Source: Hymenobacter piscis
GTDB lineage: Bacteria; Bacteroidota; Bacteroidia; Cytophagales; Hymenobacteraceae
Assembly (NCBI RefSeq): GCF_018760735.1
Contig: NZ_JAHHZN010000007.1
Span: forward strand, 124,001-188,000
Direction of reading: 5' to 3'
DNA: 64,000 bases
Shown here: in pieces, positions 37,121 to 43,583 of the stretch
Layout: each line of letters begins with the position of its first letter
Position numbering within the stretch: position 1 is the stretch's first letter
The notes under the pieces: model-generated
The model's input: only the letters and a program-made list of their open reading frames with translations
The model's database searches: none
Told to the model about the DNA's origin: nothing
Translations under genes and position numbers: made by a program

Positions 37121-38785
37121 ATGGCCAACGGCTTTTTCAACGTCCCGACCCCGATCAACGAGCCCGTGAAGGGCTACGCGCCCAACTCGCCGGAGCGCCT
37201 TGAGCTGCTCAAGACCCTTAAGGAGCTTAAGCAGCAGCAGCGCGACATTCCGATGCACATCGGCGGAGAGGAAATCCGCACCGGCAAGAAGCAGAATATC
37301 ACCCCACCCCATGACCACCAGCACGTGCTGGGCCAGTTCCACGAAGGCGACGCCTCGCACGTAGCGCAGGCCATCGACGCGGCCCTGGCCGCCCGCCCGC
37401 TGTGGGCCGAAATGCCCTGGGAGCACCGCGCCGCCATCTTCCTGAAGGCCGCCGACCTGCTGGCCGGCCCTTACCGGGCGCGCCTCAACGCGGCCACCAT
37501 GCTGGGCCAGAGCAAGAACGCCTTCCAGGCCGAAATCGACGCGGCCTGTGAGCTGATTGACTTTTTCCGGTTCAACGTGCACTTCATGCAGCAGATCTAC
37601 CAGCAGCAGCCCGAGAGCCTGCCCGGTATGTGGAACCGCCTGGAGCACCGCCCGCTGGAAGGCTTCGTGTTTGCCCTCACGCCCTTCAACTTCACCTCCA
37701 TTGCCGCCAACCTGCCCGCCTCGGTGGCCATGATGGGCAACGTGGTGGTGTGGAAGCCCGCCAACACCCAGATCTACTCGGCCCAGGTGCTGATGGAACT
37801 GTTCAAGGAAGCCGGTGTGCCCGACGGCGTTATCAACCTGGTGTACGTGGACGGTCCCACCGCTGGTGAGGTCATCTTCAAGCACCGCGACTTTGCCGGC
37901 ATCCACTTCACCGGCTCCACCGGCGTGTTCCAGAACATCTGGAAGACCATCGGCGAGAACATCAACAACTACAAGAGCTACCCGCGCATCGTGGGCGAAA
38001 CCGGCGGCAAGGACTTCATCCTGGCCCACCCCTCGGCGCACGCCAAGGCCGTGGCCGTGGGCATCAGCCGGGGCGCGTTTGAGTACCAGGGCCAGAAGTG
38101 CTCGGCCGCCTCGCGGGTGTACCTGCCCTCGAACCTCGCCGACGAAATCCTGGGCTACGTGAAGGAAGATCTGGCCTCGTTCCGGATGGGCGACGTTGAG
38201 GACTTCTCCAACTTCATTAACGCCGTTATCGACGAGAAGTCCTTCGATAAGCTGGCCAAGTACATCGACGGGGCCAAGGCCGATGCCAACGCCGAAATCG
38301 TGGCCGGCGGCGGCTACGACAAGTCGAAGGGCTACTTCATCGAGCCCACCGTCATCGTGACCAAGGACCCCAAGTACGTGACCATGTGCGAGGAGCTGTT
38401 CGGCCCCGTGCTCACCGTGCACATCTACGACGCCGACAAGTTCGACGAAGTGCTGGAACTGGTAGACACGACCTCGCCCTACGCCCTCACTGGTGCCATC
38501 TTCTCCCAGGACCGCTACGCCATCGACCACGCCTCGAAGAAGCTGGTGCACGCGGCCGGCAACTTCTACATCAACGACAAGCCCACCGGCGCGGTAGTCG
38601 GCCAGCAGCCCTTCGGCGGCGCCCGCGCCTCCGGCACCAACGACAAGGCCGGCTCCATGCTGAACCTGCTCCGCTGGGTGTCGCCGCGCGCCATCAAGGA
38701 AACCTTCGTGCCTGTCACGGATTACCGCTACCCCTTCCTGGGCTCCGAGCCTGCGGAGGATCTGAACAGGGATAAGGGCCTGTAG
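37121..38785 (+). CDS. pruA: L-glutamate gamma-semialdehyde dehydrogenase (1-pyrroline-5-carboxylate dehydrogenase)
   Basis: Aldehyde dehydrogenase of 554 residues that oxidises glutamate semialdehyde (from proline or arginine) to glutamate with NAD+. The catalytic Cys is in GQKCSAASR and the general-base Glu in VGETGGKDF; NAD-binding HFTGSTGVFQ is also present. Length and the N-terminal MANGFFNVPTPINEP fit the long PruA group found in Bacteroidota and animals. It is single-gene, with its own -7 box and terminator. Its last 59 codons (from 38609) and terminator are repeated, without indels, at 43341-43580. Confidence 0.95.
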   Translation: MANGFFNVPTPINEPVKGYAPNSPERLELLKTLKELKQQQRDIPMHIGGEEIRTGKKQNITPPHDHQHVLGQFHEGDASHVAQAIDAALAARPLWAEMPWEHRAAIFLKAADLLAGPYRARLNAATMLGQSKNAFQAEIDAACELIDFFRFNVHFMQQIYQQQPESLPGMWNRLEHRPLEGFVFALTPFNFTSIAANLPASVAMMGNVVVWKPANTQIYSAQVLMELFKEAGVPDGVINLVYVDGPTAGEVIFKHRDFAGIHFTGSTGVFQNIWKTIGENINNYKSYPRIVGETGGKDFILAHPSAHAKAVAVGISRGAFEYQGQKCSAASRVYLPSNLADEILGYVKEDLASFRMGDVEDFSNFINAVIDEKSFDKLAKYIDGAKADANAEIVAGGGYDKSKGYFIEPTVIVTKDPKYVTMCEELFGPVLTVHIYDADKFDEVLELVDTTSPYALTGAIFSQDRYAIDHASKKLVHAAGNFYINDKPTGAVVGQQPFGGARASGTNDKAGSMLNLLRWVSPRAIKETFVPVTDYRYPFLGSEPAEDLNRDKGL

Positions 38786-38845
38786 GCCGTTTGGTTTTGA
38801 GGAACAAAAAGGCCGCTCCGGGATTCCAGGGCGGCCTTTTTGCCG
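38609..38845. repeat. pruA: Direct repeat, first copy (3' end of pruA plus terminator)
   Basis: This segment matches 43341-43580 in the same orientation. The 177 coding bases align without gaps; I count 12 differences, 8 of them in the last 40 bases. The two copies bracket the LytTR regulator, histidine kinase and TonB receptor genes. Confidence 0.93.
38806..38843 (+). terminator. Terminator of pruA
   Basis: AAAAAGGCCGC (38806-38816) with GCGGCCTTTTT (38831-38841), a strong two-way hairpin with A and T tails; it may also serve the convergent regulator gene. Confidence 0.88.
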
Positions 38846-38868
38846 TGCTTCGGGGCGGACCTTGCGGC

Positions 38869-39579
38869 TCAGCGGATGAGTTGGTAGAGCTGCTCACGGT
38901 AGGTCTCGCTGACCGGAATTTCCTTTTCACCGATGTAAATGGTGTTGCCATCGACCATGCGGATTTTGCTCAGCGACACGATATAGGACTTGTGTACCCG
39001 CAGAAACGGCGGCTGGGGTAAGGTTTCGGCCAAGTCCTTGAGCGTGTGGTAGGTCACCAACCGCAGTCCGGGCAGGTGGATGGCTACGTAGTTGCTCAGG
39101 CCTTCGATATAGAGAATATCGGCGTACTCCACCCGTAGAAACTTGTTCTTGCTTTCGCCCTTCACAAACATGTGGCCCAGGGCGGCGGGCGGCGGCGCAG
39201 CCAAGGACAGCGGGGCCGGAGGGGCTGGCAGCAGAGCCAAGGCTTTCTGCGCCGCCTTGAAAAAGCGCTCAAACGACACGGGCTTGAGCAGGTAATCTAC
39301 CACGTCGTTCTCGTAGCCTTCGAGGGCGTACTCAGGGTAGGCCGTGGTGAGGATGACCCGGCACTTGTTGCCCGCCAGCTTGAGGAACTGCAGGCCCGTG
39401 AGCCGCGGCATCTGAATATCGAGAAACACCAGATCCACCGCGCCCTGCTGCACCAGCGTCAGGGCTTCAATAGGCTTGGTGGTAGTCCCTACCAGCGTCA
39501 GGAAGGGTACTTGGCTGATATAATCGGCCAGAATAGCCAGGGCCGGGGCTTCGTCGTCAACAACCAGGCAACGAATCAT
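38869..39579 (-). CDS. LytTR-family response regulator
   Basis: Two-component regulator of 236 residues. The receiver domain has VVDDEAPALA (acidic pair), the phospho-acceptor Asp in LVFLDIQMPRL (near residue 54), and Lys in YLLKPVSF. The C-terminal LytTR DNA-binding domain (about 135-236) has KNKFLRVEYADILYIEGLSN, then FLRVHKSYIVSLSKI. An Ala/Pro linker joins them. Same strand and 46 bases after the kinase gene, so the two form an operon. The likely target is the divergent TonB receptor gene. It is the cytoplasmic half of the pair. Confidence 0.93.
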   Translation of the reverse strand: MIRCLVVDDEAPALAILADYISQVPFLTLVGTTTKPIEALTLVQQGAVDLVFLDIQMPRLTGLQFLKLAGNKCRVILTTAYPEYALEGYENDVVDYLLKPVSFERFFKAAQKALALLPAPPAPLSLAAPPPAALGHMFVKGESKNKFLRVEYADILYIEGLSNYVAIHLPGLRLVTYHTLKDLAETLPQPPFLRVHKSYIVSLSKIRMVDGNTIYIGEKEIPVSETYREQLYQLIR

Positions 39580-39625
39580 AGAGGTGTGGATTGAGAAAAA
39601 GTAAGGCTGCGTTTCTCAGCAGCAG

Positions 39626-43340: not shown

Positions 43341-43517
43341 CCCTGCGGCGGGGCCCGCGCCTCCGGCACCAACGACAAGGCCGGCTCCCTGCTGAACCTG
43401 CTCCGCTGGGTGTCGCCGCGCGCCATCAAGGAAACCTTCGTGCCCGTCACGGATTACCGCTACCCCTTCCTGGGCTCCGAGCCTAAGGAGGACTTGAACC
43501 GGGACAAAGGTCTGTAG
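43341..43517 (+). pseudogene. pruA: Duplicated C-terminal fragment of pruA
   Basis: The 59 codons directly after the receptor stop encode GGARASGTNDKAG, VSPRAIKETFVPVTDYRYPF and the ending EDLNRDKGL-stop, matching the end of PruA (38609-38785) with no gap. There is no start, so this is a non-expressed remnant; I count 12 base differences in 177. Differences cluster at the 3' end. It keeps its own copy of the terminator. Confidence 0.93.
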
Positions 43518-43540
43518 GCCGTTGTTCGGTTTTTAGAAAT

Positions 43541-43578
43541 AAAAAGGCCGCTCTGGAATTCCAGGGCGGCCTTCTTAT
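43541..43578 (+). terminator. Duplicated pruA terminator, now ending the receptor gene
   Basis: AAAAAGGCCGC (43541-43551) with GCGGCCTTCTT (43566-43576); inside, CTGGAATTCCAG is a perfect palindrome. It is a copy of the hairpin at 38806 and probably ends transcription of the receptor gene and of the convergent Uma2 gene. Confidence 0.85.
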
Positions 43579-43583
43579 TGGTG

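Follow-up and report, generated by a model that had tools for sequence, protein, structure and literature searches.

When a cut plasmid with one-ended homology was introduced into Escherichia coli, the PCR test for a partly duplicated target gene end was positive in 56 of 60 integrants, and the 14 integrants that were sequenced carried duplications of 109-950 bp, ascribed to a truncated circle inserted by a single crossover (Amarir-Bouhram et al. 2011, PMC3240628). Homology-facilitated illegitimate recombination (HFIR) proper accounted for 4 of the 60 and gave deletions; in the same study, HFIR is described as generally deleting recipient DNA of similar size and as using mostly 3-10 bp of micro-homology. 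Work on pneumococcal merodiploids reports duplications of about 100-900 kb, bordered by existing repeats (Johnston et al. 2013, PMC3784515). Here we describe a locus of Hymenobacter piscis, contained in a stretch of 64,000 nucleotides (hereafter the window; contig NZ_JAHHZN010000007.1, positions 124,001 to 188,000), in which a module of three genes, encoding a LytTR regulator, a sensor kinase and a TonB-receptor-like protein, lies between two direct copies of the 3' end of pruA.

The locus resembles truncated-circle integration in that seemingly foreign DNA adjoins a direct but incomplete copy of the end of the target gene, and the duplicated part, 177 coding bases plus a terminator, can be set beside the size range given above. 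The E. coli events involved a plasmid in laboratory conjugation, whereas here a natural event between diverged alleles is proposed, and the circle is one that we infer. As single-crossover integration predicts, direct copies of the recombining gene's end flank the module. With HFIR in transformable bacteria the locus may share the pairing of one homologous with one illegitimate end: the right join is illegitimate, and the left crossover cannot be placed here. In contrast to HFIR as that study presents it, recipient DNA was duplicated, not deleted, and exact homology at the join amounts to 2 bases. The likeness to merodiploids lies in the duplication, which there is left when transforming DNA joins chromatids non-allelically. 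Closest in gene content are the LytTR/His_kinase/OMP_b-brl_3 modules of H. actinosclerus DSM 15310 (G001), H. aerophilus DSM 13606 (G003) and H. rubripertinctus CCM 8852 (G065), which stand beside pruA at the same locus and in the same gene order. The pruA 3' repeat, however, is absent from these three species, and the modules of H. aerophilus and H. rubripertinctus lie between two Uma2 genes.

We consider the H. piscis locus likely to be a chimera of a module-bearing and an empty version of the pruA-nuoB interval, joined by recombination. One version would have consisted of pruA, the LytTR gene, the kinase and the receptor, and the empty one of pruA, a terminator and two Uma2 genes, Uma2a and Uma2b. 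On the left, homologous exchange would have occurred in pruA or its 3' end. On the right, one illegitimate join would have linked the receptor stop codon to base 38609 of the other pruA allele, perhaps helped by a match of seven out of nine bases in register. The expected product is a full pruA, terminator 1, the module, and then the last 177 bases and terminator of a second allele. The features of the locus are as follows.

37043..38785, + strand: pruA, full-length, aldehyde dehydrogenase family (PF00171, 328.6 bits); pruA was matched in 118 of 119 other genomes of the genus
38609..38785, + strand: repeat copy 1, the 3' end of intact pruA (repeat search, alignment)
38786..38845, + strand: spacer and hairpin of terminator 1, between pruA and the convergent LytTR gene (fold -27.8 kcal/mol, z -4.9); homologous to terminator 2, and absent from the 6 terminator-like sites of the consensus scan
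38869..39579, - strand: LytTR response regulator (PF04397 and PF00072)
39626..40726, - strand: sensor kinase, His_kinase family (PF06580), which we take to be LytS/YehU-like
40932..43340, + strand: TonB-receptor-like outer-membrane barrel, divergent from the kinase (PF14905, PF13620, PF07715)
43332..43341, + strand: join, the receptor stop codon followed directly by the pruA 3' end (GGCCGGTAG / GGCCAGCAG in register, 7/9)
43341..43517, + strand: repeat copy 2, 58 codons and stop of a pruA allele, open frame (alignment with 20 relatives)
43518..43580, + strand: terminator 2 (fold -28.7 kcal/mol, z -7.4; terminator-like site 43544-43573)
43584..44808, - strand: two Uma2 (PF05685) genes, which directly follow pruA in the relative G074
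45409..48589, + strand: nuoB, nuoC, nuoD and nuoE-like genes (names from Pfam domains), the conserved right flank; nuoB lies downstream of pruA in 19 of 20 relatives

A second copy of the final 177 bases of pruA (38609-38785) lies at 43341-43517 in the same orientation and carries 12 substitutions. The repeat search paired 38597-38791 with 43329-43523 (92%, spacing 4732), the first 12 bases of the latter, before 43341, being the end of the receptor gene and only partly like pruA; for the terminator part it paired 38789-38841 with 43524-43576 (87%, spacing 4735). BLAST of 38597-38845 against the whole genome gave six matches, namely the query, copy 2 (90%, E 3.5e-92) and four rows covering the terminator hairpin only, so that no third copy of the pruA coding part is among them. 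The similarity of the two pruA 3' ends, which share identical runs of 55, 39 and 36 bases, is far beyond chance. Repeat search, BLAST and alignment all bear out the 177-base, same-orientation repeat with 12 differences reported in the first-pass annotation. Its absence of indels holds for the coding part; the terminator-bearing stretches after the two copies are homologous and differ by one 3-base indel, which shifts the spacing from 4732 to 4735. The clustering of differences near the 3' end was also seen correctly (8 of the 12 fall in the last 33 bases) but is not special, because the same tail is also the most variable part of intact pruA in 20 relatives (alignment judged by eye). The three genes placed between the copies all score above their Pfam cut-offs, as had been read from the sequence; the Pfam scan covered these three genes, and the remaining open reading frames of the interval overlap them.

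Relatives were searched for in 120 genomes of the genus Hymenobacter, the genome of the window included. The pruA search across the 119 others scored up to 5 candidates per genome and listed matches to about E 3e-5, the weakest being terminator-only matches; 118 genomes had one coding match each, and no second pruA 3' end was among the matches listed. Detailed comparison of the pruA loci of 20 relatives showed the module at 3 and none at 17. The empty site envisaged in the first-pass annotation exists in G074, which has the arrangement of the window minus the module: pruA, Uma2a (87.6% amino acid identity), Uma2b (95.0%) and nuoB (100%). When the window flanks were joined at 38608/43341, leaving out the module, and aligned with 7 relatives, G074 gave one alignment over 3169/3169 positions (93.6%, 21 gap positions), which demonstrates an empty site; the likeness of the repeat copies prevents the point of opening from being fixed to the base. 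The G074 alignment contains no large gap, and the deletion of recipient DNA that HFIR leaves at its illegitimate side is not seen. The other 6 relatives aligned in two pieces, a pruA side and a nuoB side, because they lack this Uma2 pair, found only in G074 among the 7, or have a different Uma2 gene. At the 17 module-less loci, no relic of the module was detected between pruA and nuoB (blastn, E 0.01); a single 32-base match in G062 lies upstream of and outside that interval.

The interval is variable in other ways. Uma2 genes occur in it in 13 of the 20 relatives at E 1e-8, in one or two copies. In G005 (locus L073), whose pruA has 96% amino acid identity, nuoB was not found in the roughly 9 kb of downstream sequence fetched, and the locus seems rearranged. 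The two Uma2 genes around the modules of H. aerophilus (L087, 5385-5788 / 10667-11070) and H. rubripertinctus (L088, 5324-5788 / 10603-11064) are in direct orientation with 67-69% DNA identity, and thus form another direct repeat around the same module.

Both edges of the module can be read against the module-bearing species. On the right, homology to the three species reaches the receptor stop codon (43340) and then ends (read by eye); they continue with a hairpin-like stretch and another gene, and the window switches to pruA sequence at 43341. The receptor end GGCCGGTAG and pruA GGCCAGCAG agree in register at seven of nine bases, a match equalled by 6 of the 1734 pruA 9-mers. On the left, homology to the module-bearing relatives starts at about 38865, after terminator 1; sliding identity along pruA was uninformative for the crossover itself, the nearest species being about equally distant. 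A false join made at the repeat during assembly was considered, the genome being a draft of 64 contigs. However, 12 of 177 bases distinguish the copies, synteny with relatives holds on both sides, the contig spans 258 kb and the contamination estimate is 0.69, so that we consider an artefact extremely improbable.

Which of the two copies belongs with which neighbouring DNA bears on the origin of the repeat. Copy 2, the outer one, is contiguous with the native downstream DNA of the empty locus, with G074 standing in for the recipient: it continues into the right half of a G074-type terminator, and the match extends beyond terminator 2 into Uma2a. Copy 1 and terminator 1 are of the type of the window's clade, copy 1 agreeing at 159-168 of 174 bases with the seven nearest species and G005 (nearest G022, 168/174) and at 150-155 with the three module-bearing species. 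Each of the 12 copy-1 states, and 11 of the 12 copy-2 states, occurs in the intact pruA of at least one of the 20 relatives; the sole private change of copy 2, Phe to Cys, is absent from all 20. The synonymous distance (dS) of the window to its nearest relatives is about 0.186, and over half of that distance a freed 174-base sequence would be expected to gain some 16 changes, against the single private change in copy 2. Judged by these states, copy 2 was probably part of a functional pruA until a short time ago. A copy that lost its gene recently and yet differs from copy 1 at species level suggests that two alleles were brought together.

These observations bear directly on an in-situ tandem duplication of pruA and the module with subsequent loss of the front of the second pruA, which the first-pass annotation had offered as an alternative. 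The direct orientation and adjacent position of the copies are what such an event would give. A tandem duplicate, however, should be one local allele whose outer copy evolves free of coding constraint, and the 12 differences speak otherwise: the copies carry alleles known from other species, they differ mostly at synonymous positions, and the divergence of copy 2 is seemingly under coding constraint. Moreover, copy 2 runs into the downstream DNA of the empty relative, and no intermediate with two pruA genes is among the listed matches of the 119 other genomes. We therefore regard this explanation as unlikely.

Several observations weigh against a chimera. The synonymous share of the copy-2 differences, 8 of 12 against a random share of 26% (P = 0.0035), is an excess weakened by the constraint that acts on copy 1 anyway and by a random share that ignores transition bias; coding constraint on copy 2 is supported but not proven by this comparison, and the allele states are the better evidence that the copy was recently working. 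Copies 1 and 2 match G074 almost equally (164 and 165 of 174 bases), the spacer before terminator 2 has a 3-base insertion that is absent in G074 and is more like G051, and the 177 bases of the repeat do not suffice to place both copies firmly on a tree. Exact micro-homology next to the join is confined to the 2 bases mentioned above. The same appearance would result if a recent in-situ duplication had been followed by the exchange of copy 1 for a foreign allele. Pooled dS values of module/flanks to the three module-bearing species are 0.535/0.512, 0.501/0.466 and 0.582/0.444, and no module-bearing allele was found in the window's own clade among the seven nearest species sampled. The mixed matches to G074, G022 and G051 indicate that alleles in the window clade are mixed, and neither half can be traced to any one sampled species. 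Two weaknesses, the imperfect synonymous test and the incomplete match of G074 to copy 2, are the reason why the chimera is held as likely and no more firmly, and why tandem duplication keeps its small share.

Direction and donor can be narrowed to some extent. Since module dS equals or slightly exceeds flank dS, the data do not support a recent transfer from the three module-bearing species, and this reading was set aside. The donor may be unsampled, or the module-bearing allele may have been lost in the window clade; that allele was either inherited vertically in the lineage of the window or acquired from an unsampled one. In the phylogenies whose comparison was proposed at the outset, the tree of pruA and the nuoBCDE-like genes nests the window among seven module-less species, while the receptor tree, in which the window is sister of the three module-bearing species (94/81), fits vertical descent too. 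One version of the chimera would have the module ancestral in the window lineage, an empty-type downstream block from a relative having replaced the right side. We regard this version as possible, though at somewhat less than an even chance. In its favour, the module and the flanks have similar dS to the three species, and the receptor tree is the one that vertical descent would give. Against it, at least three losses would be required among the eight species of the window clade on the tree of pruA and the nuoBCDE-like genes (some inner forks below 95), and no relic was detected by blastn at the module-less loci. The entry of a module into an empty locus and the entry of an empty-type block into a module-bearing locus give the same product, and the choice is not settled. 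The earlier suggestion that the module entered by recombination at pruA is upheld in substance, by the G074 empty site, the three occupied loci and the allele-like copies, but not in its direction.

Islands that restore the 3' end of their target gene leave an anatomy such as this one, and a site-specific integrase island in the pruA 3' end, with the repeat as attachment (att) sites and a replacement 3' end supplied by the island, was considered. Usual att cores are shorter than the repeat found here. The interval is filled by the LytTR regulator, the kinase and the receptor, and the modules of the three other species have no pruA 3' end at their far side. Profile searches limited to Phage_integrase (PF00589) and Resolvase (PF00239), other recombinase families not being searched, gave no match on the window's 258-kb contig or on the module contigs of G001, G003 and G065; such genes are present elsewhere in all four genomes, and action in trans is conceivable. 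This explanation was set aside as very unlikely. Carriage of the region on a plasmid also found no support: 17 of 72,556 plasmid records match, none covers 80% of the region, and the best row covers 8%, although a short-lived circle would leave no such record; the best 8 of the 17 comprise 2 matches to LytTR/kinase, 4 to pruA and 2 without annotation.

For the proposed chimera, the likeliest route would be a linear fragment that was trimmed, circularized and inserted by a single crossover of RecA type within the short 3' end of pruA. Alternatives are one-ended linear integration and interchromatid joining as in the pneumococcal merodiploids; by analogy, the duplicated anatomy of the window would make a truncated circle the likelier one. 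ComEC-like and DprA-like matches above the family cut-offs are present in the genome, but these families are widespread, and the matches only leave transformation possible.

Judged from the protein families, the module itself presumably pairs a sensor with a regulator, the two controlling an outer-membrane protein for uptake or sensing. Its receptor has 85-89% amino acid identity to those of H. actinosclerus, H. aerophilus and H. rubripertinctus. Among the matches listed, receptor relatives of at least 54% identity occur in 31 of the 120 genomes, those of G010 and G094 being split or partial. Just 4 genomes, the window's own and G001, G003 and G065, have such a relative within 10 kb on the pruA contig, although fragmented assemblies (G090, G094, G107, G108) could hide linkage. 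A kinase adjoins the receptor at 26 of 30 receptor loci examined, as judged within a 1.5-kb flank that limits the view of each locus, and regulator, kinase and receptor stand together at all six (6/6) named loci with longer flanks. The window receptor lacks the hairpin found 3' of the receptor in the three module-bearing species and is followed instead by copy 2 and terminator 2, a strong hairpin at which the receptor transcript probably now ends as well. Because of the identical runs shared by the copies, the module could be lost as a circle: recombination between the copies would restore the empty site and may be possible, as the first-pass annotation had supposed. A broader view, that receptor modules enter and leave the pruA-nuoB interval of Hymenobacter as cassettes without an integrase, through homology in the conserved pruA end or in Uma2 copies, and that the repeat is an active pop-out state able to regenerate the exact empty site, is speculative, and we would call it doubtful.

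The window contains further repeats. An interspersed palindromic repeat of about 105 bases occurs at 9053-9156, 35452-35563, 36946-37051, 49951-50054, 54707-54818, 55498-55601 and 58680-58780, and a genome search with the copy at 35452-35563 gave 96 matches, many places being counted on both strands because the unit is palindromic. The copy at 36946-37051 lies just upstream of pruA, and the first ATG of the pruA reading frame (37043) sits within it; the true start is probably later. A tandem array at 1629-1941 has a 21-base unit in 14.9 copies (83% matches, no indels).

Events of this kind are already known from laboratory strains, and the window is a clear natural example, with the empty site, module-bearing sites and the chimeric product all available together. 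It gives a legible natural record of how a regulated receptor module can pass from one bacterium to another while showing no trace of a mobile element. Finding the 3' end of a gene directly repeated need not mean an integrase island or a tandem duplication, and the allele states of the copies, together with the DNA that follows them, can tell the origins of such a repeat apart.

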